A stretch of DNA of 64,000 bases from Parietichytrium sp. I65-24A (taxonomy: Eukaryota; Sar; Bigyra; Thraustochytrida; Thraustochytriidae): NCBI GenBank assembly GCA_012862575.1, contig BLSF01000059.1, positions 124,001 through 188,000 on the forward strand, read 5' to 3'. Positions 1,267 to 45,922 of the stretch are shown here, in pieces. The position numbers and the translations under genes were made by a program. The notes under the pieces are model-generated. The model had not been told where the DNA came from. It saw only the letters and a list, made by a program, of their open reading frames with translations, and made no database searches. Position 1 is the stretch's first letter. Each line of letters begins with the position of its first letter.

Positions 1267-4200
1267 CCCAACCAGGCACTCAAAGTTCTTCGCCAGCTTT
1301 CCACAACCTAAACTTGCTGCAGATCCCACCCGCTCACACCCGGTCCCAGTGCTCTCCTCACTTGTACAAAGCACACAGACTGCGTTTCGCACCGCGTTCA
1401 CAATCCACACACGCTGCGCTGCCAAAGACCCCGATGCTAGTCTGCTTCTCTCGCTCTCGCCCTTGCTCTTTTACTCTTGCTCTTGCTCTTGCTCTTGGTT
1501 GTCTCGACAGGACTCTAAGCACGGTGTGTGTGTAGTGTAGGCTCCCAGCTATGCCCGAGCCTTCGCATGCCACCGCTACTTGCTTGCTTGCTTACTTGCT
1601 TGCTTGCTTGCCAGGATCAGAGATGTTCAGAGTTTCGGACTGTGAGTTGGGCGAAAGATTTGGGCGCTCTCGGTTGTCTCGGCCAAGGTCAAGGTCTCCT
1701 CAAGCGTTGAGGTTATTTCTTTCTTCGTGCCCGCTTTGCTTTGCTTTGCTTTGCTTCACTGTCGATCTTGGCAAGGTATTGAGTACGAGTTGATTGATCG
1801 AGAGTTTTTGGAAAAAGTACTAAGCTCGTTCGTTATTTATGAACTCGCACACCTTGCGTACCTTGCGTGCTGGTTAGACAACGCAAAAACAAAAACAAAA
1901 ACAAATAAAACAGTCCGATCTGATCTGATCTGACTGTGAATTCTTATCTGGTCTGTGGCTGTGATGTGCGAATGAGAAGCATCTATCTCCACTTGACCGT
2001 CCGTTCTGCCATCTGAATTCTGAATATGCTTATTCTGGATTTGACAACTAAACATTTTCAGGGGCCTACGGATGTCTAAGGGGTGGGTCTCGAACGACTG
2101 CGGAAACGGCGGGATACAAAGCTCAGCCACGGATGCATTGAATGCCCTTGGATCCTTTGCACACGTGTAGCCATCTGAACTGATCGGCGTGAGCATGTGA
2201 GCATGTGGCCATGTCGACTTGTTGGTGTATGGCTCCTTCCAGTTCCCCTCGTTTCATCAATCAATCATCAATCATCGAATATCGCTCACGGTCAGCAGCG
2301 AGCGGCGAGCGTAAGAAACGACTCCGCACTAATGGAGAGTACTAGCTCGGCGCTCGATTGGTGCAGTCGGGACAGTCGAAGGTCTAACCACGCTTTTGAG
2401 AGCTCGTACTCTCGGCTGGAGCAGTGTAAATAAGAATGTCGCAAAGCCCTGCACTCTCTGCGCCTGCCGAACAGATTCACGAGGTCGCTTTCCAGCATTT
2501 CCAGCCAAGCTTCGACTTGACTGTGAGTGCTCGCCAGCGATCGTGCATGATCATGGATGCGTTCTCGTGGACAGTGGACAGTGAACAGTGGACAGAGAGG
2601 ACGGTGGACGGGCGAGGGGGGGGGGCATTGCAAGCGGGTTCAATGCCCACCTCCAACGCATGGCTTCCAAGTTATAGCCGCCGCCATTCGTGCTCCCGAG
2701 TCATCGATTATTCAGCTTCCCGATTCCTTCTGCGCACAACCTTTCCCTCCAGCTTCAAGCTTCAAGCTTCGAGCATCTTCGCAACTTTTCATCTTCACAT
2801 TCTGCTTCGCAATAATCTCACACCTTCTCGGTTCAAAGAGCACGTGTGTCCCAGCGCGGTACACACTTCTGCAATCACGTCGCACACCTGTAACAAGAGC
2901 CTCTTAGTGACTAGAGAAAGACGTGAAATGGGATATCGGACGTCACATAGGGTACACCATGACGAGAGGGCATGTCTGGGGGGGTGCGGAGACGAGAGGA
3001 GGTGGTAATTTAAGAGGATTTATCGTCACTTGAACGGCTTCGTGACGCGAATTGTTCCAAAATTGACTTTCTTCCTCTTTCTTCGTTTTCTTCCTCTTCG
3101 TTTTTTGGAATCGGGAACATTTGCCTTTCGATCGCAGCTCATTTCGTGTTCATTTCAATGAACATGAGACTCAAGAGCAAGAAAGTCAAGTTGAAACAAT
3201 TGACTCAGCTACTCGAGCACGCAGGATCCTTGCGAATGATTGCACCAACTGTCCACACGACGACTCTCATTGAAGGTACCAGGAGCATTGGCACAGACGA
3301 TGCTTTTGTGACTTCGATCGGGTCGAAGGTGTGTGCGAAGTAAAGAAAAGTGTTTAATTGCAAGTGGGAAGAGTGACATAGTCGAAAGAGAGAAGCACCG
3401 GGGACATCAGGAGATGCACTTGGCTGCTTTGCAGAGAGAACAGCGAGTGGAGAAAGCAAGAAAGAAAGCAGTTGATGGCAGAGATGAGACGGTCATTCAC
3501 TCGTTCACGGCTTCCACAGTCAAATCATTTAAACATACTTAGGCCTAAGCTGCGCACCCGAATGAGGGAATGAGTGGCTGGAAGCGCTTTGCATCTTTGC
3601 ATCTTTGCAGCCGTGTATCATCGTGCATCTTTGCAGCGTTGAATCTTGGGTCTTCGCATGTCTTTGCTTGCTGTGCTCTTGCGATCAGTGAACGCGGTCC
3701 GGGTGACTGAAAGAGATGAAAGCAAGAAAGAGCAATCAATGCGATCATCATCACCTTCCAAGAGGCACGAGGCTTGCCTTGGGTTTTTGGGAGACTTGGG
3801 TGTGCGGCAAGTCATTGCTGCCGAGTGCGAAATGACGCGGAATGTAAGTATAATTTGCTCTGACCGAATCTGCTGTAAGCTCATTCTCATTCAACAAAAG
3901 GAAAGGTCAAAAAAGACACGGACTGTTAGTTCGTTTTGTTTGTGTTCACTATTCAAATTCGATGAACATGTTCATTGAAAGGATGGCTGAGAAGCACAAC
4001 CTCGAACGTCACGTGATTCACAGCCGAGGTACTTTCCTGAGTTGGTTGACATGGCGCTCTCGAGCTGGAACATTTGAGGTCGAGTTTTTGGCTGGCAGAG
4101 AAAGCGAGTGAAAGCTAAAGTGGTTCCCAAGGACTGGCCAGGCCATTTGTGGCTCGCGAACTTGGAACAAAAAGGTTGCAAGTTCAACTTGCTGACAACA

Positions 4201-7636: not shown

Positions 7637-8395
7637 CTACTGAAAGGCCGCAGGCAGGGCGGGCTCTGCAGTCTTGTTGCTTGCCTCTGAATCAGTTGCT
7701 TGCTTTGCCTCGCCAGCAGAGTCTGACTCTGGGTTTTGAGCACCGAATGTCACAGGCTGAGCTGTCGCCGAGGCATTGTGAATTTTTGCTAGCGCTTGGT
7801 GCACCCTCCTTTGCTCTTGCAGATTGCGCTCCAAGATGACTTTTGCATCCTGCTCGCGCGTGGTGGCGTCCACTGCAGTCTTTGCGTATGTGTATCTTTC
7901 AGGGAACGCGGGAAAGTGTGCCGGTACGTACCTGGGATGTTCACGATCTTTGCCCCTGATTCCCTTCTCGCCGAGCTTTGCCTCTTTCACGGCCACCCAT
8001 TCTGCATCTTCTGCAGTACCCTGCGGCTGATTGCTTGATTCGCCGTACTGAACTCTTCTCCGCCGCCTCTCGACTGGAAACTCGGGCACGCCACTCGTAT
8101 AAGGCACTTGCCAAGGCACCTCTCTGCACATTCTTTCCAGCTCCCTCCAGTCCACACTCTTGGGCTCCAGTCTTTCGAACGCTTGGAGCAAGTCCATCAG
8201 GTTGCTCTCCGTTCTTCTATCGTGCTCGGCGTACCTGCGACACAAGTTGCCGATCTTCTCAATGTACTTTCCGATGACATCAACCAGCATATCGAAAGCG
8301 TGCCCTTCCGCTGTGTCAAAATCGCCGAAAGTCTCGTGCCTACATACTTGCGCGACGGCGATGCGCATTACTTGCTCAGCAAATTGGTCTCCCAT
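7637..8395 (-). CDS. TAF8: Transcription initiation factor TFIID subunit 8 (TAF8)
   Basis: A 252-residue nuclear protein. Residues 1-75 form a bromodomain-associated histone fold (GDQFAEQVMRIAVAQVCRH, then FDMLVDVIGKYIEKIGNLCR). At about 154-173 is the TAF8 C-terminal motif, here PRYVPAHFPAFPERYTYAKT, which in TAF8 proteins is the Pro/Phe-rich stretch ending in TYxxT. In other eukaryotes TAF8 pairs with TAF10 through the histone fold and helps build the TFIID core. A basic patch (VERRRRRV, about 108-115) and a helical charged segment (about 183-203) are also present, followed by a low-complexity tail. The length is short for the family but both diagnostic regions are intact. It is read in one exon and its 3' end faces the surface-protein gene across 222 bases. 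Confidence 0.9.
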   Translation of the reverse strand: MGDQFAEQVMRIAVAQVCRHETFGDFDTAEGHAFDMLVDVIGKYIEKIGNLCRRYAEHDRRTESNLMDLLQAFERLEPKSVDWRELERMCREVPWQVPYTSGVPEFPVERRRRRVQYGESSNQPQGTAEDAEWVAVKEAKLGEKGIRGKDREHPRYVPAHFPAFPERYTYAKTAVDATTREQDAKVILERNLQEQRRVHQALAKIHNASATAQPVTFGAQNPESDSAGEAKQATDSEASNKTAEPALPAAFQ

Positions 8396-11052: not shown

Positions 11053-12498
11053 ATGGCGCTCAGTGGCGCCGCAGATGCGGAGAAGCTGGTTGTAGGCGAT
11101 GAAGAGGCGGATTCGCTGGTGAAGCGCGATATGATTCGCGATATTGAGGCCGATAGCATTCATGGGGATGACGCGAGCCAGGAGATTCTTGAAGAAGGCG
11201 ATGTTATTTTACCCACCGAAGGCATCGCTGCGTGGCTCAACGTTCTGGGGTCGTTTTTGACGCACTTTGTGGTGAACGGGATTATTCACAGCTTTAGTTT
11301 GTTTGTGAAGGACTACGAAGAAAAGTACCAGGTCTCCCGCGGCACGATCAGCGTTGTGTTTCAGCTACAAATGGGAGTCATGTACACCCTTGGTTTCTTC
11401 ACAGGAAAGCTCTCCGATAGGCATGGCGTAACCAAAATTTATTTGATAGGGATCATCTCCCTCGTCTCCGGGCTTTTGGTAGCCTCGTTTGTCACCGATG
11501 TCAACGACTTTTGGAAAGTCATCATCGCGCAGGGCTTCATGGTTGGAATCGGAGCGGGCTGTCTCTACTGGCCGGCAGTCACTGTTGTGCCCATGTGGTT
11601 CGATAAGAATCGCGGCCTTGCCACTGGACTCTCCGTGTTGGGAACTGGAGTGGGCGACATCGTCGGAGGTGTCCTTGTAGAAAAGTCTTTGAGCACTGTC
11701 GGTGTGGAGCGTACTCTGCAATATGAAGCGGTCACTGCAATTGTCATTCTCATGGTCTCGGTGTCTCTTTTGAGAAGACGATTGCCGAGGATGAAGCGAC
11801 ACATTTGTTCTTCGGACTGGGACACCATCTCTGACAAAAGGTTCGTCATCATGTTTGTCGGAACTTTCCTGTTCCAGGGGTGCTACACGATCCCACTGGC
11901 AACGCTCGGAGCGTACGTGGAAGACTTTGGCCTATCGTCCGAGTTTGCAGGGCTATCCGTGGGAATCATTGGCATTGGCTCTGCCATCGGCCGGGTGCTT
12001 CTCGGGGCTGCAGCCGATTGGTGGGGCCGCGTGAAGAGCATGAAGTTGTACATGTGGGCCACTTTTTTCTCCTCCGCGGCTTGGCTTGCATGCCAGACGA
12101 AACCTTCCATTGTTGCGTTCGCGATCTTCTTCGGGTTCTCCACCGGAGGTGTGGTTAGCCTGGTTCCAGTGGTTATTGGTGAATTCTTTGGCGTTGCTCA
12201 GCTAGCAACCGTCATGGGGTACATCTCTCTGTCCCTTGTCCCAGGTTCTGTACTAGGACCGTTCATCGCCTCTTCATTGTATGATGCGAGCGTATCATAC
12301 ACTACGATAGTTAATGAAACCAGCAACGCACCGGAGACAGTGGAAGTCCACTCGTACACGTACAGTCTCATCTTCTGCGCGGCTCTTGGGCTCGGCGGGG
12401 CTTTAATAGTCACTCCTCTGAGAGAATCAGATGTGATGTCAACTGGCGATCTCCCCGATGCAGCTTCACCAAAGTCCCCGAGCTCTGAATCGAGCTAA
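11053..12498 (+). CDS. MFS transporter, monocarboxylate-carrier (SLC16-like) type, paralogue 1
   Basis: A 481-residue integral membrane protein with about twelve hydrophobic segments. The N-terminal tail is acidic (about residues 1-55). TM1 starts at AAWLNVLGSFLTHFVVNGII. Motif A of the major facilitator superfamily is clear at about 118-128 (GKLSDRHGVTK), and LLRRRLPRMKR marks the central cytosolic loop. The layout matches the SLC16/fungal MCT family, which moves monocarboxylates and related small organic solutes, usually with protons. The real substrate cannot be read. The ATG at 11053 is used; an in-frame GTG six bases upstream is not. It is the first of three tandem paralogues, and the most divergent: the last extracellular loop is longer and carries an NETS sequon, and paralogues 2 and 3 share more with each other. 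Spacing to the next gene is 1.65 kb. Confidence 0.92.
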   Translation: MALSGAADAEKLVVGDEEADSLVKRDMIRDIEADSIHGDDASQEILEEGDVILPTEGIAAWLNVLGSFLTHFVVNGIIHSFSLFVKDYEEKYQVSRGTISVVFQLQMGVMYTLGFFTGKLSDRHGVTKIYLIGIISLVSGLLVASFVTDVNDFWKVIIAQGFMVGIGAGCLYWPAVTVVPMWFDKNRGLATGLSVLGTGVGDIVGGVLVEKSLSTVGVERTLQYEAVTAIVILMVSVSLLRRRLPRMKRHICSSDWDTISDKRFVIMFVGTFLFQGCYTIPLATLGAYVEDFGLSSEFAGLSVGIIGIGSAIGRVLLGAAADWWGRVKSMKLYMWATFFSSAAWLACQTKPSIVAFAIFFGFSTGGVVSLVPVVIGEFFGVAQLATVMGYISLSLVPGSVLGPFIASSLYDASVSYTTIVNETSNAPETVEVHSYTYSLIFCAALGLGGALIVTPLRESDVMSTGDLPDAASPKSPSSESS

Positions 12499-14147
12499 CA
12501 ATACGCGTGTCACCCAACTTCTGCCCATAGGATTAATTGAATAAGTGTTGTGTAATCTTTAAAATCATGTCCTCTAATTGCGGCTGCGAGTCTCGGCACA
12601 ACTGAGACATTTGAGCGTCTTGTATACTCACAGACAGTACAGGTACCGGTACAGTACAAGAAGCTTTGATCGTCTGTGAACACATCCACACATCGATCTG
12701 TTCTTGCTGTATTTCCACAATTCTGCTTGAAGCAGCTGATCAACGCCAGAAGATGCCAGAAGGCAGAAAGCGGCTCAACTTTCGTGCTCCTTTCGTGATC
12801 CGGGAAAGCTGTCCAAACTATGCTGTAGCTCTAGTAGCGGTTGAACATAGAATGCAGTAGGCTTTCTTTGTCCGACAGCGTGTGTGAGAGTGGTGGGACT
12901 GGTCAATGAATCATTGATTGATTGGACGGACGGAGAGGCACTCAATAACGACTAAGCTGACTTGTCTGTCTCGTCTCTCTCATCGCCGGCGCGTAAGGAT
13001 CCAATCTCATAAAAGTATTGTCTTCGACTGTTGATCTTCACACCTTCACAACTTTAAGTTGCTTACAGTGTTGACTGAAAAACAGTAATTTCAAAGAACA
13101 CGATAACGCGCATTTGGGCTTCGTTTGGGACAGTACCAGTATTCCACTCGATAAAACTTTCAGTGTGCTGATCTCGCTTGGCTGGGCAAAAAAGAAAAAA
13201 GGAGTGTGCAAGGCTGGCAGGCGCATACCGCTTTCAGCGTTGGCTCTTCACGTTTCGCTTGCCAAATGGAGGAGTTTCATCGTAAGGCTTGATTGAAAGT
13301 GGATCCATTGTGGTAGGGTCGACCCCGTGCTACTCATCAGTGCACAGGTCTGTGAGGTCTCGTTCACCATGGTCCCCCCGAGAATCGAGATGGGATGGAT
13401 TTTGGAAGCGTATTTGTCCAACGAAAAGCTTCTCGTCGCAGGCTCGAGCACAGATGCTTTGGACTGGAGTTGTGTACCGATAATTGTATGCGAAGAAAAA
13501 GAGTCACGAAAAGATCCAGACCCAACATTGTTTAAGCTCACAGTCCTCAGTGTCCTCAGCCCGCAATTCTGCTGCCAACTGGAATGGCGACTCTTCTCAA
13601 CTGAAAGGGAATGCTTCTCGGTGAACGAAGACTTGGAAGGTGGTCCGGGCAAGAAGGAGAGCATTTCTGATCGTCGCGTTCTCCGTCAAGTCGCGCACGC
13701 CTTGCAGTCGTGCCAAGCCCGTGGAGTGGAGCGCAGAGGAGAGAAGTCGTACAAAAGCATTTCACAGTTGAAATCATCCCGAAGGAAAAGCGAAAAAGTT
13801 ACACAAGTCGTCCATTTCTACTTCTTCAACTGAAGTTCATTGCGAGTGCAAGAATTGAAAGAATGGCGGACTAACTACTCTACTCTGGCAATGTTGTTGT
13901 TGCGGCATTTTTTTCACGCACACACCCATCGTGTAACAGACTGTAACAGACTGGAACGTGTTGCGCTAGAGCATCGACTATGAGTTCCGTGGAGAGAGGG
14001 AGGTAGAGGAGAGAGAAAGAGCGCCAATTCCCGAATGGCAAGCGCTGCTGTGTTGGTGAATGCTTTGAATTTGGAAGGGAAGAAAGAAAGAAGGAACGGA
14101 CGCATTAAGGTTACGGCGCGACGGAATAGAAGAAGACACGCGAAGAG
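12499..14147. other. 1.65 kb spacer between MFS paralogues 1 and 2
   Basis: It holds the palindrome GTACCGGTAC at 12643-12652. A 168-codon plus frame at 13327-13833 overlaps a 138-codon minus frame; neither has a recognisable domain or even composition, so neither is called. The last 150 bases before 14148 are purine-rich and are probably the leader of paralogue 2. Confidence 0.5.
12643..12652. promoter_or_regulatory. Palindrome GTACCGGTAC, spacer 1 of the MFS block
   Basis: A perfect 10-base palindrome embedded in a wider symmetric context (GTACAGGTACCGGTACAGTAC-like, 12637-12657). It lies 145 bases after the stop of MFS paralogue 1 and about 1.5 kb before paralogue 2. The same 10-mer recurs once in each of the next two spacers. 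A role as a binding site is inference. Confidence 0.45.
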
Positions 14148-15623
14148 ATGGCGTCGGTGAAAGGCGAGTCCAGTCTCCCCAAACCCTCGTTTCGTATGGC
14201 GGAAGGGGAAAGCGACTACTCGGGCCAAAACGCAGAGAGTGAGGAGGGCCAAGCCACCCGAGCCGGGCAGAATGGGTCACCAGAGGATCCCAATCTGCCG
14301 CCGACGGAAGGCATGTTGGCGTGGCTGCAGGTGTTGGGGTCGTTTATGACGCACTTTGTCGCGTTTGGAGTCATGTATACTTACAGTTTGTACATTGTGT
14401 ATTACGAGGAAATGTATAACGAATCTCGCAAGCGGATTAGCATCATTTTCCAACTTTTGCTCGCGCTCATGTTTGGCAGTGGATTTTTCACAGGAAAGCT
14501 CACGGATCGTTATGGCGTCACTCGCGTCTATGCCGCAGGGATTGTGATGCTCATTTCTGGGCTCCTCATCGCAGCATTCGCTACCAACTTCACCATGGTC
14601 ATCATCGGCCACGGGCTTCTTTGCGGTCTCGGCTGCGGGTGGGTGTACTGGCCAGCTGTCACAGTTGTACCAATGTGGTTTGACAAACGCAGGGGCATTG
14701 CACTTGGTCTCGCTGTGCTTGGGTCTGGAATCGGCAACTTTGTAATGGGAATTGTCGTTGAGAGACTGTTGGTCAATGTCGGTGTAAAAAAGGCGCTATG
14801 GTATCAGGCTATCTGGAATGCCTTGGTGCTCATTATTTCGATGTTTATCCTGCGCAGGCGGCTCCCGCGCACTAGTACGCCACTCTTCAGGCTTGATCGA
14901 GACATAGTAAGCAATCGCCGCTTCGTGTTGATGTTCTTCAATGCATTCTTTTTTCAGTGCAGCTACAATATTCCGTTCGCAACGTTGGGGGCATACGTCG
15001 TTGACGTAGGTCTAAGCTCACAATTTGCTGGCTTCGCGGTGGGCCTTGTCGGTATCGGATCAGCAATAGGTCGCATTTCGCTAGGGGCGTTCGCGGACAA
15101 GTTTGGGCGGTTCCGGTGCTTCAAAATTGCCATCTTTGCTACAGTGGCTTGCATTGCAGCATGGTATGCTTGTGAGACCAGGCCATCTCTTATAGCCTTC
15201 ACCGTGCTTTTTGGATTCTTCTCTGGTGGAATGGTGAGCGTCCTACCTGTGGTTATGGCAGACTTCTTCGGAGCGCAACGACTGGCCACGGCGATGGGAT
15301 ACATTTCCCTTGCACTTATCCCGGGTTCCTTCATTGGTCCATTCGCAGCAGCGGCTCTCTTCGATGCGAGCGGGGCTTACAAAAACTCCATCATATTTTC
15401 TGCGGCGTTCGGCCTCGTGTCTGCATCCCTCTTACTTTTTATCCCCGGCCCCGAGCATGAAAAGGGTATGTTTTGCAAAGGCAAATCCAAATCGAGAGAA
15501 TCCTCTTCGGATTCTGACCTCGTTGAGCAGGACAAAACCACTGATCAATTATCCGATCCAGAGAGTGACACAGCTCCAGCTCTCCCGCGCAGGCCCAGCG
15601 ACAACAACATCGCATTTGTCTAA
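14148..15623 (+). CDS. MFS transporter, SLC16-like type, paralogue 2
   Basis: A 491-residue, twelve-segment carrier. The N-terminal tail (about 1-52) is acidic and Ser/Gln-rich. TM1 begins at MLAWLQVLGSFMTHFVAFGV. Motif A at about 116-126 reads GKLTDRYGVTR, and the central loop contains ILRRRLPRTSTP. The C-terminal tail is long, charged and Ser-rich (KSKSRESSSDSD), a possible place for phosphorylation. The start at 14148 aligns with paralogue 3 (MAS...KPSFRMA in both). The substrate is unknown; the family suggests a small carboxylate or zwitterion. It lies in the same direction as paralogues 1 and 3 and the CoA-transferase, which suggests tandem duplication and possibly shared use of one substrate class. 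Confidence 0.93.
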   Translation: MASVKGESSLPKPSFRMAEGESDYSGQNAESEEGQATRAGQNGSPEDPNLPPTEGMLAWLQVLGSFMTHFVAFGVMYTYSLYIVYYEEMYNESRKRISIIFQLLLALMFGSGFFTGKLTDRYGVTRVYAAGIVMLISGLLIAAFATNFTMVIIGHGLLCGLGCGWVYWPAVTVVPMWFDKRRGIALGLAVLGSGIGNFVMGIVVERLLVNVGVKKALWYQAIWNALVLIISMFILRRRLPRTSTPLFRLDRDIVSNRRFVLMFFNAFFFQCSYNIPFATLGAYVVDVGLSSQFAGFAVGLVGIGSAIGRISLGAFADKFGRFRCFKIAIFATVACIAAWYACETRPSLIAFTVLFGFFSGGMVSVLPVVMADFFGAQRLATAMGYISLALIPGSFIGPFAAAALFDASGAYKNSIIFSAAFGLVSASLLLFIPGPEHEKGMFCKGKSKSRESSSDSDLVEQDKTTDQLSDPESDTAPALPRRPSDNNIAFV

Positions 15624-16091
15624 CCCTTTCCTCCTTTGCTCGTTTGAGCTTCCATTATTTATCGCTTTCTCGTGCTGCTTGAGAGCTAAACGATCGGTTG
15701 CGGAGACTGCTCAACACTTAAGATTCAAAATTCAAAACTCGGGACCGAAAGTGAGCATGCATACGCTGGCTGGCAGATTATGGGAAAAGTTGAACCCGTT
15801 GTGCCGAACTTAGCGTTCACATTCTTGCAGGCTCTCTTCTGCAGGGGGCTTGTCAAAAGCTCTCACCCGTTCTGTTAAATAAACCTTCATCACCTTCACT
15901 TTATTGCTGATTCATTCCGCTGCCAACTTTGATAATTTTCCAGAGCTTTTCAACGTTTAGAAATTCAGAAACAATTTTACACCGACTGTGAGTTTCATTT
16001 TCTGCAAATAATTTGGTGGCAAATTTTTCCCACCAAAACGTCATGAAAATGCGTTCCTCGCGCACCAGCCGGCCAAATTTCCCGTTCAAGC

Positions 16092-16099
16092 TGACGTCA
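16092..16099. promoter_or_regulatory. CRE-like octamer TGACGTCA
   Basis: A perfect palindromic cAMP-response-element type octamer, bound by CREB/ATF-class bZIP proteins in other eukaryotes. It lies about 1.1 kb before MFS paralogue 3. The octamer could occur by chance; function is inference. Confidence 0.3.
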
Positions 16100-16453
16100 T
16101 CTCCTCATTACTTCCAGCTAACACAAAGAGTAATTATAATCGTCACGAACGACCTGACTCCGCCCTTTCGAGGCTCAAGCACAAGCAGTCAAAATACTTT
16201 CAACAACGAGCTGTCAGAACTCTGTCAGAGCTGTCAGAGCGCAGACACATGTAGACAAAGCACTTTCACAATTTCAATTTCACAATTTTAAAAAAGGAAA
16301 TAATTATTCACATTTAACAGCAACCTCTCCACTCCAATGATCTCCAATGCGCAGAAGAGAATCACTCTCGGTGTAATACACGATCGACCCGCGCTATACT
16401 GTATCAGGTACTGCGGATGTAACGAGTGGTTGCAACAAAAGGACGGAATGGAA

Positions 16454-16480
16454 AGAATGAATGAATGAATGAATGAATGA
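16454..16480. repeat. AATG tetranucleotide microsatellite
   Basis: About six units of AATG. Similar AATG arrays recur at about 27891-27912 and 47126-47161, all in non-coding DNA. Confidence 0.9.
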
Positions 16481-16514
16481 GAAGTATAGGGAGGAGATGA
16501 AGGGAGTCCTATCC

Positions 16515-16524
16515 GTACCGGTAC
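16515..16524. promoter_or_regulatory. Palindrome GTACCGGTAC, spacer 2 of the MFS block
   Basis: The second exact copy of the 10-base palindrome, 704 bases before the ATG of MFS paralogue 3. The flanks (ATCC before, AAGTGC after) differ from the other copies, so only the palindrome itself is kept, as expected for a binding site rather than a recent duplication. Confidence 0.45.
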
Positions 16525-16735
16525 AAGTGCCTATCGCTGTTTTTCCTTTTAGTTTTTTTGTTTTACTGTTTGTTTTTGTTTTGTCGCATCGCAATACATT
16601 TCACCTTTCACATTTCACATCTCACGTCCTTCTGCGTAGTCCTTCCTTCCTTCCTTCCTCTCCTTGTTGTCGTCCACGCATTCGCAGTCAGCCATGTCGT
16701 CGTTCGCAACGACTCATTCATCGTCCCTTTCTCGC

Positions 16736-16761
16736 AGAGAGAGAGAGAGAGAGAGAGAGAA
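16736..16761. repeat. GA dinucleotide microsatellite
   Basis: An uninterrupted GA array of about thirteen units. Confidence 0.9.
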
Positions 16762-16921
16762 ACAGAACAGAAAATTTCAATCAAAGGACAAAGGACGAAA
16801 GACGAAAGACTCGCCGGCCTCTGCTCGCGAATTTGCCGAGGCTGCGGAAGGCTAAAGTAAAAGATAAGAGGTCAGCATACGGGTCCGAGTGGTCCGACAG
16901 GTTGAGTTGTCGCTCGCTCCA

Positions 16922-17055
16922 CTACCAAGACATACCAAGACATGCCAAGACATGCCAAGACTGCCAAGTCTTCTTCGACTCATTGACAGTGAACTCATTG
17001 CACTCATTGCACTCATTGCACTCATTGAACGCATTAAACGCATTGAACGCATTGG
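16922..17055. repeat. Two short minisatellites, CCAAGACATG and CATTGCACT units
   Basis: From about 16922 to 16968 the unit is close to CCAAGACATG. From about 16994 to 17055 the unit is close to CATTGCACT, drifting to CATTGAACG. The second array directly follows a TTGACAGTGAA motif (16983). A 20-base piece of it, CTCATTGCACTCATTGCACT at 16994-17013, recurs inverted at 41693-41712. Confidence 0.8.
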
Positions 17056-17218
17056 CTGACAACAAGCAGCCAATAGTTGAATCTGGAGGAGTGAGCTGGA
17101 GAAGCAGACACCAATTCGGCGGTGCTTTCGGAGTTGGGCGTTAGGTTTTGGAGCATCAAGTGGAACGGCGCGGGAAATGAAGAGTGCTGCAGACACTGCA
17201 GACGCTGCAGACGGGACG

Positions 17219-18649
17219 ATGGCTTCGGAGCAAGGCAAACCGTCCTTTCGAATGGCCGACGACTACGAGGATGGCGACGGCGACGTGGAGAATGTGCGGG
17301 CGAAAGAAGATGGTGAGCGCGTGGCGGGAGCAGAGCCAGCGGCGCAGGTCGTGGAATTACCGCCTGTGGAAGGCTTGCTTGCGTGGCTGCAGGTGCTGGG
17401 CTCGTTCATCACGCATTTTGTCGCGTTCGGGCTGATATACACGTTCAGTCTTTACATTACAAGGTATGAGGATATGTACGGTGTCTCGCGGAAAAGGATC
17501 AGCGTCGTGTTTCAGCTGATGCTCGGACTCATGTTCGCCAGTGGCTTCTTCACGGGCAAACTCACTGACAGGTACGGAGTGACAAGGATATACGCCGTTG
17601 GCGTTTTGCTCCTCACGACTGGCATGCTTGTCGCTGCTTTCGCAACGAACTTTACGACGGTCATCATTGGCCACGGGCTTCTTTGCGGTCTCGGATGCGG
17701 GTGGGTATACTGGCCTGCGGTGACGGTCGTTCCAATGTGGTTCGACAAGAGGCGAGGCGTGGCATTGGGCATGGCAGTATTGGGCGCTGGAGTCGGGAAC
17801 TTTGTTGTTGGCGTGATCGTGGAGCGCCTGTTGGTCAACGTCGGCGTCGAGAAAACTCTGTACTATCAAGCCATATGGAACTTTGTGTTGCTCGTCTTTT
17901 CGATGTTTATTCTACGCCGAAGACTCCCAAGGACCAACACGCCCTTTTTCAAGCTAGACTGGGACATTCTCACAGATCTGCGCTTCATCCTCATGTTCGT
18001 GAACGCTCTCTTTTTCCAGTGCAGTTACAATATCCCTTTCGCAACGCTCGGTGCATATGTGACCGACCAAGGTCTCTCGTCCGAATTTTCAGGATTTGCG
18101 GTGGGGGTTGTGGGGATCGGGTCTGCTTGTGGCCGGTTTTCTCTCGGCTTCGTGGCAGACAAGTTTGGTCGCTTCAACTGCTTCTGCGGCTCAATTTTCC
18201 TCACGGCAATCTTCCTCTCGATCTGGTCGGTCTGCACCACCGAAACTTCGATTCTCATTTTTGCAGTATTTTTTGGATTCTTCTCTGGCGGCATGATTAG
18301 TCTCATTCCCGTGGTGATGGCTGATTTTTTCGGGGCACATCGCCTTGCCACTGTCATGGGCTATGTAGCCCTTGGTTTGGTTCCAGGATCGTTCATCGGA
18401 CCGTTTGCTGCAGCTGCTCTGTACGACGCCAGTGGAGACTACCAGAATTCCATCACATTCTCAGCAGTTCTCGGGTTCGCATCGGCTGTAGTTCTCCTCG
18501 GAGTTCCGTTCGCTTCAAAGCGACACGATGCCAAGCAAATGGCATTGGGATCCACCGAAGACGACTCTGACGCCTCCTCGGACCACGCTGAAAACGACAG
18601 CAGTGTAGGAGCGAATCCTGGGGAAGAATCGAACGTGAGCAGGGTTTGA
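17219..18649 (+). CDS. MFS transporter, SLC16-like type, paralogue 3
   Basis: A 476-residue, twelve-segment carrier. An ATG at 17177 is in frame, but the 14 residues it would add come from a GCTGCAGAC repeat. The ATG at 17219 gives MASEQGKPSFRMADD, matching the start of paralogue 2, so it is preferred. TM1 starts at LLAWLQVLGSFITHFVAFGL. Motif A is GKLTDRYGVTR, and the central loop is ILRRRLPRTNTP. The charged C-terminal tail is Ser/Asp-rich. Long blocks are near-identical to paralogue 2, for example GLGCGWVYWPAVTVVPMWFD, so these two are the most recent duplication in the array. The substrate is unknown. The next gene in the same direction is a CoA-transferase, 1.42 kb downstream. Confidence 0.93.
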   Translation: MASEQGKPSFRMADDYEDGDGDVENVRAKEDGERVAGAEPAAQVVELPPVEGLLAWLQVLGSFITHFVAFGLIYTFSLYITRYEDMYGVSRKRISVVFQLMLGLMFASGFFTGKLTDRYGVTRIYAVGVLLLTTGMLVAAFATNFTTVIIGHGLLCGLGCGWVYWPAVTVVPMWFDKRRGVALGMAVLGAGVGNFVVGVIVERLLVNVGVEKTLYYQAIWNFVLLVFSMFILRRRLPRTNTPFFKLDWDILTDLRFILMFVNALFFQCSYNIPFATLGAYVTDQGLSSEFSGFAVGVVGIGSACGRFSLGFVADKFGRFNCFCGSIFLTAIFLSIWSVCTTETSILIFAVFFGFFSGGMISLIPVVMADFFGAHRLATVMGYVALGLVPGSFIGPFAAAALYDASGDYQNSITFSAVLGFASAVVLLGVPFASKRHDAKQMALGSTEDDSDASSDHAENDSSVGANPGEESNVSRV

Positions 18650-20072
18650 GTTTAGTTTGTGGTATGGTCTCTATTCTTGGCCCTATAGTTTTTTTGCTCG
18701 CCCCTTGCGACTTGGTTGGAAGATAGTAGATGCATTGTATCATTGTATTGTACCATTTTCCAAAGTCCTGAGCTCTGACTTTCATTGACTACATGTGTGT
18801 GTAAAAAGAAAACAAGTTGATAGTTGTTAGCTCGTGTCCTTCGTGTCATTCGAAAATTCTCTCCAATGGAATTCTGAACAGCAAATACAACACGCCGGTC
18901 CCTCCCCGTCCGCTGTGTACACACGCCGTCGATACGTTGTTTGTGTTGACGTTCCGTTTCGTCGTTCGCGCCGTCCAAAGCCAGCCAAGTTTGAAGCTCA
19001 ACCTTTCCATGCTCAGTTGATGGTGACAGATTGGCAGCGAGAGCTGTGTAGGTACCGGTACCACTACTGAGTTTTAGTGCCAGCACACCCCGAAGTAAGT
19101 TAGTGCAAAGTGTCGGACAGAGCTTTGTGATGCTTTGTGCAATAGGACTCCATCCAAGCCCATCCATCCGTGTCAAAAGATGGCACGTTTTGCTGTGGCG
19201 GGCATTCCGGGCATGTTGGCTGTGAGTTGTGACATGTGATGTGAATCTTGCAACCCACAACTTGAACTTGCTACTAGTACCGAGAGGTGTCTTCCTTTTC
19301 TACTTATCTTCTCTCTTCTCGCTCGCCAACTTGCCCTTTTTAACGGCGCTGCTTTCGCATGTCAGTCGCCCACATCGTCACATCGTCAGGACATGTCAGG
19401 ACTCTGCACTGCCGGTATCTTTTTCTGAGACGGAGGTGGAGATGGTGGAGATGGCGGACATGGCGAGGCACTTTTCGTGCGCAGTGTGCATCCAATAATA
19501 ATTGCCTACATTGTGCCTCACTGGAGCTACTGAAGCTTTTGAAGGGTATGTGGCGAGCGCTGAGAAAGAAAACGAGATCTTTTTTCATTCATTGTTTCGT
19601 TCATTCATTCTCTTTTCTTCCTCTGTCTGTCTCTTCGCCCATGCTGATGTTTGCGACGTCTCGTTTCACATAATTGGTAAAGGATCTTTCGTATCTTAGA
19701 GAGTACGCGCACTGCGTTGGAGCTGTAGAGCAGTCACTGGCAGACTGCCAGACTCTGATTGACATTGGACATCATTGGAACGCAGTTGGCAGGAGAAGAA
19801 GGCCACAGTTCAGAATTGAGATCGATCAGAGCGCTTTCGCCAATCGCCAGCTCGTGCGCTCTCGTAGAGTCGAATTTCGGTCGAGTGGAGTGGGGCGGAG
19901 TGGAGTGGAGAGGATAGGTGGGAATCCTGCTTCCTGTCCGTGTGTCCGTGTGTCCGTCCGTCCGAAAGTTCGCAGTCTGCAAGCCGCGAGTCGCGCGTCT
20001 CGTGGCCGTGAGAATCCGCGAGAATTCCGCCTCTCGGTGAAAGGCTCGGCGAGGAGGCGCAGGAAGAAGCGA
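18650..20072. other. 1.4 kb spacer between MFS paralogue 3 and the CoA-transferase
   Basis: It holds the third GTACCGGTAC (19052-19061, inside the 12-base palindrome GGTACCGGTACC) and a TTGGCTGTGAGTT motif at 19216. The frame of the CoA-transferase stays open upstream to about 19674 but has no ATG there and is Arg/Ser-rich, so this part is taken as leader. Confidence 0.55.
19052..19061. promoter_or_regulatory. Palindrome GTACCGGTAC, spacer 3 of the MFS block
   Basis: The third exact copy, about 1.0 kb before the ATG of the CoA-transferase, here extended to the perfect 12-mer GGTACCGGTACC (19051-19062). No exact fourth copy was seen in the window; the nearest is a one-mismatch copy at 4414-4423. 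Confidence 0.45.
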
Positions 20073-22553
20073 ATGGAGAGCATTCAAAAGTCTGTGACGT
20101 GGGCAGGGGCGAGGATGTCTCAGCAGAAACTTGCCGCCGCGATTCTGGCTGGAATTTGCGTGTCGGGAGCGTGGGTCATGGCGAAGAAGAATGCCAAGAA
20201 GAAGCAGGCAGAAAAGATGCGTAAAGCAAGGCTGCCCGCAAAGCAGTCGAAGCGGGACCCGAATCAGGTCAAGGACAAGAAACTGTTCTCCGGGGTGCGC
20301 GTGATTGAAATTGCTTCCCATATCGCTGCGCCATCCGCAGGTCGGTGCCTCGGAGACTTTGGCGCGGAAGTTATCAAAGTAGAAATCCCGACTGGAGATT
20401 TGCTCCGATACCTGCTGGTGAATTTTGAGCCCCCGAGGACACACGGCACGTGCTTTGAGAACCAAAATCTCTCCAAGTATGGCATTCAGCTGGATCTGAA
20501 GAGCGAACACGGCTCGAGTGAGCTGAAGAAACTTCTTGCTGGTGCAGACGTAATTCTGGTCAACACTCGAGGCGCCGCGCTCCGCAAGCTTGGGCTCGAC
20601 TACGAAAGGATCCGACACGATTTTCCGCACCTCATCTACGCTCACGTCACGGCATGGGGAGACAAAGGTAATGACTGCGATCTTCCCGGGTACGATGCCG
20701 GGCCGTTCTGGACTGCAAGCGGGTTGAGTGCTCTCACCAACCCATCCGATCTATACTCTGTTTACCCTGGCGGCCTTGGAGATCAGACGACGGCACAGTT
20801 TTTGCTTTCGGGGATCCAGGCAGCGCTTTTTGACAGGCTCAAGACCGGGCGAGGGTGCAGGGTGGAGACGTCGCTTTTCCACGTCGGGTGCTATACTGTC
20901 GGGCCGCATGCCCTCACCGCAAACAAGACGGAGCGCGATGGACATGTGCCGGACTACAATTGCAAGGCAAAGCCCAAGGTCGTCGACAACATATATTGCA
21001 CGAGCGACGGTGTCATGTGCGCCATCTGTTTCAAGGGAAGCTTCAAAGATGAAAAAATGGCTGAGAAGCAGCTTTGCCAAGCTCTGGATCTGTCCTGGCC
21101 CGAGGACTTTGAGAGCGTGAAAGCCAGAACAAACTCTCTGACGTTCCACGCTTTGACTGAAAGTGTGCAGAAATGTCCAAGCCTCGAAATTACGCGCTAC
21201 CAGAATACCGTAGAGGCTTGGGACGTCCTCAAGAAAGAGACCGCGCTACCGACTTACACTCCAGAAAACGGTCCCCTCGACTTTACTCCAGAGGGTTTCG
21301 ATGATGTTCCTGTTTGCACTCGAGTGCCTTTTGAGATGTCTGAGTTTCCAAACCATGGCCCTCACAGCCGCGCACCGAACAAAGGAGAGCACACCGACGA
21401 TGTTATTTCGGAAGGCTGGCATAGCGTGCGCATTGCGTGGCCCGAGCCCTCTGCCGAGTCCGATCGGAAGCCTTTAGATGGCGTGGTAGTCTTGGAGTAT
21501 CTGAACACACAAGATCGACACGACACTTGTCTCTCCTCAGCTGGGAAAACCCTCCGAGAGCTTGGCGCAACGGTTTACAAAGTTCTAGCGGATGGGAAAG
21601 AAGATCCTTTGAAATCCGTTAACGAAACTATCTATCGTCATTTCAACGACGGCAAAGTCGAGAAAAGCGATGGCGACCTTCCGAAACTATTGAAGAGTGG
21701 TCCCGGCACGGTGCTTCTCACGGACTTTACATCCGCCAAATTGCTCAGTCAAGGCATCGACGCAGAGAAGCTTGTGGGTTCAGGTGTCATTGTGGTCCAA
21801 TTGAAAGCGGACAGTTCAAATGAAAAAGACTCATTCGCATTTCTTGACTCTGGATATCTCAATGGCGGCATTGCTTGCGTCATGGGGGGCCATCCTGCGG
21901 TTGAAATCCCCCGGTTCCCCGAGCACGCTTTGGAAGCTATGGCGAGTGCATTTGTTGTGTCGGGAACTACTGCTGCCCTCTTTCACTATCGAAGAACTGG
22001 TCGAGGTCAAATCGTTCGTGTGTCGTACCATCGCATCGCATTGTGGCTGGCCCAGCTCAACAATACATGGATTCTGCGCGATCCTCGGTACCTCACATTT
22101 GGGGGCGCCAGCTCCAGAGGGGTGCGCAATCACCCAATCGCAACGTTTGGATCACATGAAACCCAAGATGGTATGTGGATTCAGCTTCTTGGGCTGGAGC
22201 CCACACGCCATCTGCCGATTCTGATGAACGCCTTTTCGTATTTCCAGCTGCGAGTCTACCCTCAGCTCGCATACACCATGCTATTCAAGGTGCTGACGAA
22301 CTTTAAAGAGAAGAGCTTGCTGAAGAAGATGGAGCCCGCATTCGTCTGTCTCAACGACTCCATTGCGAACGAAATAGCAAAGTACAAGTACAACGACCTG
22401 CGCGACAAGTTCCAACAACACGACGTGTGGTATTCACCAATTCGTATGCCATCGCAATTGTTTGACTACCAACAAGTTTGGGACAACCAGTACTTTGCGA
22501 AGAGGCCTGATGGAACTGTACATGTAGTTTCCCCCGTGCGCATCGTGCAGTAA
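20073..22553 (+). CDS. Double-domain class III (CaiB/BaiF-type) CoA-transferase, membrane-anchored
   Basis: An 826-residue protein; the first in-frame ATG after a stop-free leader is at 20073. Residues about 15-40 form a hydrophobic helix (LAAAILAGICVSGAWVM) followed by a Lys/Arg-rich stretch, so an organelle membrane anchor or targeting region is likely. Two CaiB-like halves follow. The first starts at about 72 (GVRVIEIASHIAAPSAG) and keeps the catalytic-type Asp of the family at D237 (PGGLGDQTTAQF). The second starts at about 470 (LDGVVVLEYLNTQ) and has Glu621 at the matching place (EHALEAMASAF), with a conserved TGRGQ loop after it. Class III enzymes move CoA between carboxylic acids through an aspartyl-CoA intermediate; carnitine, oxalate and bile-acid enzymes are known members. 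The substrate cannot be read. The bacterial DMSP enzyme DddD also has two such domains, but there the active Asp is in the second half. Confidence 0.88.
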   Translation: MESIQKSVTWAGARMSQQKLAAAILAGICVSGAWVMAKKNAKKKQAEKMRKARLPAKQSKRDPNQVKDKKLFSGVRVIEIASHIAAPSAGRCLGDFGAEVIKVEIPTGDLLRYLLVNFEPPRTHGTCFENQNLSKYGIQLDLKSEHGSSELKKLLAGADVILVNTRGAALRKLGLDYERIRHDFPHLIYAHVTAWGDKGNDCDLPGYDAGPFWTASGLSALTNPSDLYSVYPGGLGDQTTAQFLLSGIQAALFDRLKTGRGCRVETSLFHVGCYTVGPHALTANKTERDGHVPDYNCKAKPKVVDNIYCTSDGVMCAICFKGSFKDEKMAEKQLCQALDLSWPEDFESVKARTNSLTFHALTESVQKCPSLEITRYQNTVEAWDVLKKETALPTYTPENGPLDFTPEGFDDVPVCTRVPFEMSEFPNHGPHSRAPNKGEHTDDVISEGWHSVRIAWPEPSAESDRKPLDGVVVLEYLNTQDRHDTCLSSAGKTLRELGATVYKVLADGKEDPLKSVNETIYRHFNDGKVEKSDGDLPKLLKSGPGTVLLTDFTSAKLLSQGIDAEKLVGSGVIVVQLKADSSNEKDSFAFLDSGYLNGGIACVMGGHPAVEIPRFPEHALEAMASAFVVSGTTAALFHYRRTGRGQIVRVSYHRIALWLAQLNNTWILRDPRYLTFGGASSRGVRNHPIATFGSHETQDGMWIQLLGLEPTRHLPILMNAFSYFQLRVYPQLAYTMLFKVLTNFKEKSLLKKMEPAFVCLNDSIANEIAKYKYNDLRDKFQQHDVWYSPIRMPSQLFDYQQVWDNQYFAKRPDGTVHVVSPVRIVQ

Positions 22554-43003: not shown

Positions 43004-45922
43004 TTACATGGCCGCGGCAGATGGCTCGTTGTCATAGATTCCCTTCACGCGGAGAGATTTTGGGTCGAACGGAGCAGAAACGTGCACAGAGGCAGGGTGG
43101 TTTTTGCCCTTGTCGCCAACCGCCCAAGTGCCCTCCTTGAGCCACTTGTTGGTGATCGCGTCTTCGCCCTCTGCGCGCTGGACGTATCCGTACACAATAG
43201 TCTTTCCGACAGTGTGGCCAAAGGCGGTGGACCGGACAAGTCCAAGGCACTCGCCGTTGCGCCAGATGGTCTCCATACCGTGAAGTGGCACATCGGCGTT
43301 GTCGACGGTGAGGCAAACAAGTTTCCTTCGGAGACCTTCAGCTTGCTGCTTCTCCAAAGCTGCACGGCCGAGAAAATCTGGGGCGTCATCTCCCTTGCGC
43401 TTGAGCTTCGAAAGGACGGTAAAGCCAATGCCAGCCTCGAGAGGGGTGTCCCTGTTACTCAAGTCCGCATGCCAATGCCTAAAGTTCTTTTCTGCGGAGA
43501 GACTGTCGATTGCGCGGTAACCTGCATCGCGAACTGGGACGTTGTGCTGCTTCTCGTACGCTTCACCGGCCTCCCGCACTGCGCGATACACAGCAGCAGC
43601 GTTCTGGGATGGAACGTGCAACTCGAAGCCGAGCTCGCCAACGAATGTGAGGCGGAGGCACAAAAGCTCAAATCCGGCAATGGAAACCTTCTGGCATTTG
43701 GAGAACGGAAGCTCCTCGTCACTGAGACTGTGTCCCGAAGTGACAACTTGCTGCAAAAGAGCGCGACTGTGAGGGCCTTGAACAGAGATCATGCAGAGCT
43801 CGTCACTCGAGTCCTTGAGAGAGACGTCGAAGCCTTTCTCCTCGACGACCTTGGAGATCCACTCGTAGTCCTTGGTGGCGGTGTTACCTCCGGCCGCAAA
43901 GTAATAGCCTGACTCGTCTGGCATGTAGGTGACTGTCAAATCAGCCTCTACTCCTCCATTTTGATTACACAGCGGAGTGTAGGTCACGCTGCCGGGCGTC
44001 TGCTTGTCCATGTCGGCACCGCACAGGTATTGCACTGCTTTTTGAGCATCTGGTCCGACGAGAAAAAATTTGCCAAAGTAGGATTGGTCAAAGATCGCAA
44101 CTCCGTTTCTAGCAGCTCGGCACTCCTCCGCTACGATCTTGAGGTTTTTGGACCATCCGAAAGTGAGCTCGGTTTCGACCAAGGAAAGGTACTTGTTGTT
44201 TTCGTTGGCTGGAATGCCGTCACCGGTAACTCGGCGTCCAGTATCCCCAAGACGCCAAGCGCCCTCCTGGTAGGCTCCATAGTAATCGTATGGCTGTGGC
44301 ACCTGGCTCCCAGCTTCCTCTGCACTCTGTGGGTACACGAACCAACCTGGACGCTCGAACCCGTGGCGCGCTTGGTGAAAGCATCCTCGCTTTGCAAGCT
44401 CCTCGTGCAACGCAGAGGTGCGGCTGTTGCGGCCGGACATGGCCTCATCATGCGGGAATACAATGGCGTACGTCTTGGCGTAGCTCTCGTGGGTTCTATC
44501 TTTGACCCACTTTTCGTCCGCCACAGAGTCCTTGTGGAACCTAGAGCAGTCGAAGGAGAAGAGGTCCAGCGAGGGCGAGCCCTGTGTGATCCAGGTCGCA
44601 ATCTCGCGGCCCATACCTCCACCAAGCATCATGCCCATCGAGTTGAAGCCACAGGCATTAAACATGCCGCGAACCCCTGGCTGAGGACCAACAAGTGGCT
44701 TGTGATCAGGGGTAAAGGACTCTGGCCCGCAAACCGTTGACTTGATACCAACACTGCCAACAGCAGGGCAGCGCTCGAGAGCGCCGTCGAGGTTCTGCCC
44801 AAAAGTCTCCCAGTCGAGCTCGAAGAGGCCGAAGGCAAAGGACTTCTCCACATTGTCCCAGAACTCTGGGTTCTGCTCGTACCCGCCAATTGCCATGGCA
44901 TCTCCTTGAGTCTTGAGGTAGATGCTCAAGTCATGATCGCGAACGTTTGGCAGTCCGGAGTGCATTCCAGGCATGGACTCAGTCACCACGAACGCATGTT
45001 TCATGGCGAGGAGCGGAAGCTTGACGTCCACCATTGCAGACACGTGGTTCGCCCACGCTCCGCATGCGTTCACTACCACGTTGGTCTTGATGCGATGTCC
45101 AGAGCTGGTTGTCACAGACTTGATGTATTTGGTAGTCCTCTTGGAGACTTGGTCGAATTTCTCGTCATACTCGATGGAGGCTACGGCGGTGTCCTCAAAG
45201 ATCCTTCCGCCTCTCTTTTTGGCAGCTTTGGCGTACGCATTCACAATCCCAGTAGGATCGATGGTACCGTCCGTAGGCGAGTACATTCCACCATACGCAG
45301 TGTCCGCGCTGATCAGCGGGTGAACGTTTTGAATTTCGCTTGGAGTCAAGTTGTGGCTCTCAATGCCGTAATACTTGCCAATTTCTGTCAAGCGCTCGTA
45401 TTCAGCCATGCGCTCCTTGTTCTTTGCGATGAAGAGACCTCCATTCTCGTGCCAACTGGTGATTTCAGTCTCCTCCTCGAGCTTTTTGCACATGTTGCGA
45501 GTGTGGGTGTGCAGCTCGACATCGATATCCGATGGGCGCAAACGCCACTGCACCAAAAACAAATCCCCAGACCGTCGATAAAAGGAAGGACACCATTGCG
45601 TCAGTAATTCGCCTTCTCCTGCCTCCCGAGCTGCTGACCAGTCAAGTTCAAAACCAAAGAAAACCAAACCAAACCAAACCAAAAAACTTACAAGCATGCC
45701 AGCACTGTGCCATGTGGTTCCAGCAGTAAGCTTGTCCTTCTCCAGCAACACCGCGTTGATCCCGCGCTCCTGAAGATGATAAAGCACGGACGATCCAATG
45801 GATCCTCCGCCAATCACCACAACATCTGCGGAGTCAGGGAGAGCGCTGGAGAGGTATCTTTGGCCGCGATTCTTGCCTGCGCCAAGCGCCCGCAAACTCT
45901 TCCGCACTGCTGCACGCTGCAT
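43004..45922 (-). CDS. SARDH: Sarcosine dehydrogenase, mitochondrial type
   Basis: Exons 45692-45922 and 43004-45547 give 924 residues. The N-terminus is basic and Arg-rich (MQRAAVRKSLRALGAGKNRG), like a mitochondrial presequence. The FAD fold starts at VVVIGGGSIGSS (about 34-45), and GTTWHSAG places His72 where mammalian enzymes bind FAD covalently. After the intron the protein continues WRLRPSDIDVELHTHTRNM, as in animal SARDH. Other shared blocks are PNVRDHDLSIYL, KSTVCGPESFTPDHKPL, GFNSMGMMLGGGMG and HESYAKTYAIVFPHDE. The C-terminal half is the folate-binding GcvT-like domain. The reaction is sarcosine to glycine, with the methyl group passed to tetrahydrofolate and electrons to ETF. The neighbouring DMGDH-like gene makes its expected substrate. 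Length and motifs fit SARDH better than DMGDH. Confidence 0.93.
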   Translation of the reverse strand: MQRAAVRKSLRALGAGKNRGQRYLSSALPDSADVVVIGGGSIGSSVLYHLQERGINAVLLEKDKLTAGTTWHSAGMLVSFLVWFGLVFFGFELDWSAAREAGEGELLTQWCPSFYRRSGDLFLVQWRLRPSDIDVELHTHTRNMCKKLEEETEITSWHENGGLFIAKNKERMAEYERLTEIGKYYGIESHNLTPSEIQNVHPLISADTAYGGMYSPTDGTIDPTGIVNAYAKAAKKRGGRIFEDTAVASIEYDEKFDQVSKRTTKYIKSVTTSSGHRIKTNVVVNACGAWANHVSAMVDVKLPLLAMKHAFVVTESMPGMHSGLPNVRDHDLSIYLKTQGDAMAIGGYEQNPEFWDNVEKSFAFGLFELDWETFGQNLDGALERCPAVGSVGIKSTVCGPESFTPDHKPLVGPQPGVRGMFNACGFNSMGMMLGGGMGREIATWITQGSPSLDLFSFDCSRFHKDSVADEKWVKDRTHESYAKTYAIVFPHDEAMSGRNSRTSALHEELAKRGCFHQARHGFERPGWFVYPQSAEEAGSQVPQPYDYYGAYQEGAWRLGDTGRRVTGDGIPANENNKYLSLVETELTFGWSKNLKIVAEECRAARNGVAIFDQSYFGKFFLVGPDAQKAVQYLCGADMDKQTPGSVTYTPLCNQNGGVEADLTVTYMPDESGYYFAAGGNTATKDYEWISKVVEEKGFDVSLKDSSDELCMISVQGPHSRALLQQVVTSGHSLSDEELPFSKCQKVSIAGFELLCLRLTFVGELGFELHVPSQNAAAVYRAVREAGEAYEKQHNVPVRDAGYRAIDSLSAEKNFRHWHADLSNRDTPLEAGIGFTVLSKLKRKGDDAPDFLGRAALEKQQAEGLRRKLVCLTVDNADVPLHGMETIWRNGECLGLVRSTAFGHTVGKTIVYGYVQRAEGEDAITNKWLKEGTWAVGDKGKNHPASVHVSAPFDPKSLRVKGIYDNEPSAAAM
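45548..45691 (-). other. Intron of the sarcosine dehydrogenase gene
   Basis: A 144-base intron with donor CTT/GTAAGT and acceptor TTTTTGGTGCAG/TGG, phase 0. It contains an AAACC-type repeat. It is a multiple of three and has no stop, so the unspliced frame stays open with 48 extra residues. The family alignment (AGML joined to WRLRPSD) shows these are intronic. Confidence 0.92.

Follow-up and report, generated by a model that had tools for sequence, protein, structure and literature searches.

The closest described systems are short palindromic motifs predicted in the promoters of oomycetes. According to the accessible parts of the corresponding papers, to which all statements on them refer, M94 (TACCGGTA) and M93 (TACATGTA) are both palindromes and count as high-confidence promoter motifs of Phytophthora infestans (Roy et al. 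2013, PMC3597505), and Phytophthora motif-9 was described as an inverted repeat found upstream of 1,284 genes (Seidl et al. 2012, PMC3520976). The authors of the latter study considered that inverted repeats correlated with expression could be sites of homodimers, and they suggested Homeobox_KN (TALE) proteins as binders of the sibling motif TACATGTA (PMC3520976). The sequence of motif-9 is cited as GTACCGGTA in a study of Plasmopara halstedii, in which streme-5 (ATACCGGTAT) was found upstream of 206 genes and was matched to motif-9 by the authors (PMC10031896). A similar motif is only mentioned in PMC6165875. Here, we characterized the 10-letter palindrome GTACCGGTAC, three exact copies of which are present in a 64 kb stretch of contig BLSF01000059.1 (positions 124,001 to 188,000 of the forward strand), which is called the window in the following. 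We consider it fairly probable that GTACCGGTAC exemplifies an inverted-repeat element of the motif-9/M94 kind, which is found throughout the genome and mainly between genes and is likely to be the site of a putative dimeric DNA-binding protein. Since M94, motif-9 and streme-5 carry the same core, this element is of a kind that has already been predicted. What is added here is its count in another genome, the preference for CG and TA centres over AT and its habit of forming arrays. When GTACCGGTAC itself was used as literature string, no motif study was present among the matches listed, as judged on the titles and the first parts of the abstracts.

The genome searched comprises 42.54 Mb in 172 contigs and is eukaryotic by its genes. 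Here, we found GTACCGGTAC at 1036 places, and the control 10-mer, which consists of the same letters read backwards, at 94 places. These data correspond to an about elevenfold enrichment. The first-pass annotation of the window had argued from the rarity expected of any given 10-mer that three copies are conspicuous. The triple is real and none of 100 dinucleotide shuffles of the window reached at least three copies, but the chance figure is misleading because GTACCGGTAC is strongly over-represented throughout the genome. At the genome-wide rate, the Poisson probability of at least three copies in 64 kb amounts to 0.18 to 0.21. If about 959 independent sites (1036 minus 77 tandem extensions, which is an approximation) were scattered at random, 17.5% of the 64 kb bins would hold at least three sites and about 9 triples as tight as that of the window would be expected per genome. 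In the real bins examined, at least three sites were present in 3 of 21 bins on contig C1 and in 1 of 17 bins on contig C2 among the matches listed. For 42 independent sites (C1, and C2 among the matches listed), the 40 gaps averaged 57 kb with a coefficient of variation of 0.76, which indicates that the sites are no more clustered than chance. The palindrome is far from a random word despite the failure of the block reading, which is discussed below.

The core TACCGGTA was present at 2390 genomic places (712 for its control). Both outer letters (G and C) were found at 1036 of these core copies, one of them at 1013 (515 + 498) and neither at 341. Expressed per side, the outer flank was G or C in 64.5% of cases versus 37.4% for the control. 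If the two flanks were independent, 996, 1094, and 301 copies would be expected, and the observed numbers come near to these values. Palindromic 8-mers were ranked in 151 kb of non-coding DNA (loci L005-L044 and the window), from which 60-80 bp around each selected site were excluded and in which the three window copies were kept. It can be seen from this ranking that TACCGGTA is the most over-represented of the 256 palindromic 8-mers (12 seen, among them the three window copies, vs. 0.77 expected). TACTAGTA, which has a TA centre and is a possible sister site, ranked second (12 seen vs. 1.31 expected), and the AT-centre counterpart was weak (3 seen vs. 0.82 expected). The pattern GTACNNGTAC was found at 3324 places overall (1672 for its control), and its centres were counted in 92 plus-strand rows of C1 among the matches listed. 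In these rows, pyrimidine-purine centres dominated, with 27 CG, 17 CA and TG together, and 14 TA as compared with 4 GC and 2 AT. The centre-swapped form of GTACCGGTAC is GTACGCGTAC. The half-shifted palindrome CCGGTACCGG occurred at 259 places (control 85). A 16-mer that carries a third half was present in 77 copies and its control in one.

To define where the copies lie, we read the sites listed first on C1 and C2, four tandem loci (on C2, C3, C5, and C6) and the window, which yielded 49 independent sites from 44 fetched loci (L005-L048) and the window. The underlying gene models are simple coding-score calls made without introns or transcripts and are thus rough. Here, we found that 48 of the 49 sites lie outside predicted exons and one inside. 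With a predicted coding share of 51.6% of the sequence, the binomial probability of such a distribution is 2e-14. When a cruder mark was applied to the 29 copies of L005-L024 and the window, 7 of them fell in stop-free frames of at least 150 amino acids and none in frames of at least 250. The position tests were carried out on L005-L024 and the window. There, 23 sites lie in spacers bounded on two sides, 14 of them tandem, seven divergent and two convergent, and these shares are close to those of the underlying spacer bases (48.6 kb tandem, 33.1 kb divergent, 9.0 kb convergent). In tandem spacers, the sites lay on average at 0.48 of the distance to the downstream start. In other words, the bounded sites are spread roughly evenly over intergenic DNA by length, and no preference for the upstream side was seen in this small sample of 23 sites with its rough gene models.

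These properties can be compared with those of the described motifs. The palindromic core TACCGGTA, the preference for an outer G and the over-representation in non-coding DNA beside genes, which characterize the motif-9/M94 class, were all found here. With motif-9, the element shares the inverted-repeat core, the outer G and the abundance. In contrast, motif-9 lies in 5' regions and is tied to infection-stage expression and RXLR genes, whereas no upstream bias was seen for the element among the 23 bounded sites. M94, which is palindromic and over-represented in promoters, is exactly the core found here. As to the pair M93/M94, CG and TA centres dominate in our non-coding set and AT centres are weak. 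The core is also common to streme-5, but the outer letters are A/T in streme-5 and G/C here. A more distant parallel is HIP1, an octamer of cyanobacteria, which is likewise a short palindrome far above genome-wide expectation. HIP1 is present in coding DNA too, whereas almost all sites sampled here are outside predicted exons.

Candidate binding proteins were searched for at the family level. Homeobox_KN gave 4 matches at three genomic places (E about 1e-15), which indicates presence only and is silent on specificity for the palindrome. SBP-box proteins bind sites with a GTAC core and Grainyhead/CP2 proteins bind sites with an ACCGGT core. Neither SBP nor CP2 gave a genomic match, and since the controls were equally silent, these negatives carry no inference. 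With regard to an oomycete host, the elicitin family gave no genomic match in a search without a responding positive control.

If the element is indeed a protein-binding site, a sequence-specific protein would recognise it as a dimer, with one subunit per GTAC half, and the dimer would span the pyrimidine-purine centre. Further subunits would sit on adjacent 6-bp repeats. The element would then comprise the core TACCGGTA with its outer G/C preference, often accompanied by additional GTAC words at a spacing of about 6 bp. The perfect inverted repeat, the nearly independent flank preferences, and the oomycete predictions are consistent with a dimeric factor. The genome-wide counts, the first rank of the core among palindromic 8-mers, the location outside predicted exons and the specific centre and register also speak for a binding site. 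Several observations weigh against such a site. The independence of the flanks is inexact (chi-square 13.1, P 0.0003). Neither TACCGGTA nor TACTAGTA was found in 167 kb of coding DNA, but only 0.38 and 0.23 copies were expected there, so that the absence of the core from coding DNA means little. Compared with random spacer positions, there was no excess of sites upstream of start codons. Of the 23 sites, five had a start within 500 bp where 6.8 were expected, and 15 had one within 1 kb where 12.5 were expected (P 0.20). Convergent spacers held two of the 23 versus 2.3 expected. Among the tandem sites read first, six of seven lay 290-550 bp upstream of a start, which hinted at a promoter link. 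This link was not repeated when the prediction was fixed beforehand and applied to four new tandem loci (0 of 4), which are 2 kb stretches and too short for every neighbour gene to show. In the accessible parts of PMC3597505, PMC3520976, and PMC10031896, no binding protein is established for the motif. Moreover, the flanks of single sites echo the hexamer, short local repeats generally abound in non-coding DNA, and both features would be predicted by an origin from slippage. A promoter element at fixed distance is unsupported by the position tests and by the four new tandem loci.

Because of this general abundance of short local repeats in non-coding DNA, an origin of the palindrome from hexamer repeats is a serious rival and the main one. 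According to this explanation, (GTACCG)n tracts arose by slippage in intergenic DNA and were subsequently eroded by mutation, and no binding protein is involved. The tandem 16-mer with its 77 copies versus one and the even spread over spacers are in line with this possibility, as is the echo in the flanks of 37 single sites, where G at +2, A at +5, and C at +6 were each found in 30 of 74 cases. In addition, period-6 10-mers in non-coding DNA were overall 3.6 times as frequent as expected, and repeats of 4-mers at 5, 6, 7, and 12 bp were 2.2 to 3.3 times as frequent as expected, with GTAC ranking first, second, third, and first at these distances among 90 four-letter words. On the other hand, the six registers of a hexanucleotide microsatellite should be equally frequent, and for the two registers compared this was not the case, since the half-shifted CCGGTACCGG is four times rarer than GTACCGGTAC (259 vs. 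1036). Loss of CpG is not a ready explanation for this register bias because CpG is little depleted in non-coding DNA (observed/expected 0.92). Similarly, words with a GC or AT centre are far less frequent than those with CG, although words with a TA or CA/TG centre are less frequent by a factor of only about two to three per word. Finally, the same core is enriched in the promoters of other species. We regard the eroded repeat as less probable but still as a considerable alternative, and the protein-binding inverted repeat remains our preferred explanation.

The first-pass annotation had offered a different explanation, namely that the palindrome is a dimeric factor site shared by a block of transporter and CoA-transferase genes. 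Its local description was reproduced. An exact search located GTACCGGTAC at 12643-12652, 16515-16524, and 19052-19061 (palindromes to which no strand is assigned) and at no other position of the window, and each copy occupies a different spacer of four co-oriented genes. These genes encode three MFS transporters on the plus strand (11053-12498, Pfam MFS_1 1.5e-37; 14148-15623, MFS_1 1.8e-44; 17177-18649, MFS_1 7.2e-41) and a CoA-transferase of family III, also on the plus strand (20073-22553, CoA_transf_3 1e-73). Thus, copy 1 separates MFS genes 1 and 2, copy 2 separates MFS genes 2 and 3, and copy 3, which lies within GGTACCGGTACC, separates MFS gene 3 from the CoA-transferase gene. Around copy 1, four GTAC words starting at 12637, 12643, 12649, and 12654 form an imperfect array with a spacing of about 6 bp (12637-12657, no strand assigned). 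With up to one mismatch to GTACCGGTAC, six places of the window were found in total, and one of the three inexact ones (12637-12646) overlaps copy 1. Copy 2 falls inside a mechanical open reading frame of 223 amino acids (16473-17144) and copy 3 inside one of 202 amino acids on the minus strand (18652-19260), and neither frame was called a gene by the coding model. The statement that the spacer was not simply duplicated also holds, since the three copies have 700 bp flanks without mutual BLAST match. The three consecutive MFS genes (11053-18649) might be a local tandem duplication, and no BLAST match connects the sequences that flank the motif copies in the spacers.

What did not hold is the tie to the block. 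It is true that three copies in three spacers and no other in 64 kb would suit a regulon of these genes. However, the genome-wide count that had been proposed as a check showed that GTACCGGTAC is common, and 17-21% of all 64 kb stretches should carry three or more copies. With about 9 equally tight triples expected, the gene block of the window is therefore unremarkable. The sampled sites follow intergenic length roughly proportionally, and the neighbour genes are unrelated. Pfam scanning of 40 of the 63 listed flanking genes, those of loci L005-L024 (all on C1), gave no match to MFS_1 and none to CoA_transf_3. These 40 genes included one ammonium transporter, one ion-channel protein, one thiolase, myosins, ubiquitin enzymes, flagellar-type proteins, and others, and 10 of them had no Pfam match. 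A site special to the block is contradicted by these data and a block regulon is rejected on the basis of the genome-wide counts and the neighbour genes, so that we give this explanation very little credence, whereas the dimeric part of the proposal stands as a plausible reading of the perfect inverted repeat and the oomycete predictions. Least probable of all is that the palindromes are footprints or ends of a mobile element, which would account for their dispersed, intergenic, and palindromic nature, since in a BLAST comparison of the 700 bp flanks of 43 sites (E up to 1e-3; one second site in L020 omitted) matches were confined to 14 short stretches (20-32 bp) that coincide with the site and its array of repeats, and such a lack of any common flank beyond the site itself speaks equally against a duplicated spacer.

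Several further observations were made in the window and in the genome. In the non-coding DNA of L005-L044 and the window, GACTGTGA and GACAGTGA were about 5-8 times over order-3 expectation as 8-mers, and their extensions, such as TCACTGTCAA, were 23-36 times over this expectation as 10-mers. Both words reached a somewhat higher density in the 200 bp around the palindrome (0.70 vs. 0.38 and 0.46 vs. 0.30 per kb). Between positions 43007 and 58168, the window encodes a Rieske ring-hydroxylating oxygenase and two large FAD oxidoreductase/GCV_T fusion proteins, which we take to be of the sarcosine or dimethylglycine dehydrogenase type. Together with the three MFS genes and the family III CoA-transferase, these genes possibly constitute a neighbourhood for quaternary-amine breakdown. 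A small protein encoded at 7640-8395 carries Bromo_TP and TAF8_C domains and is likely to be the TFIID subunit TAF8. A genomic search for the polyunsaturated fatty acid synthase PfaA yielded 13 partial matches, none of which was over the cut-off, and 11 of 14 control genomes were matched too. Partial matches to the PfaA model at positions 8562-22499 of contig C66 and 17460-18278 of contig C68 lie inside open frames of 5583 and 1965 amino acids, and this suggests that these frames may encode giant modular polyketide synthases.

With the local block finding dissolved, the analysis points to a genome-wide word, about elevenfold enriched, that matches predicted oomycete motifs. As no bias towards promoters emerged, the element could have an organisational rather than an activating role. 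More tentatively still than the repeat origin discussed above, we suggest that the TACCGGTA palindrome might be an old regulatory or chromatin-organising site reaching beyond the oomycetes, which in this genome would take the form of homotypic GTAC arrays with 6-bp steps and a pyrimidine-purine centre in all kinds of intergenic DNA and not just in promoters. If this were true, the spread of such an old site over all intergenic DNA would suggest a general genome-organising factor and not a stage-specific activator. If the host lies outside the oomycetes, the site would be more widespread than the accessible parts of PMC3597505, PMC3520976, and PMC10031896 show, and its reader protein would become a tractable question.

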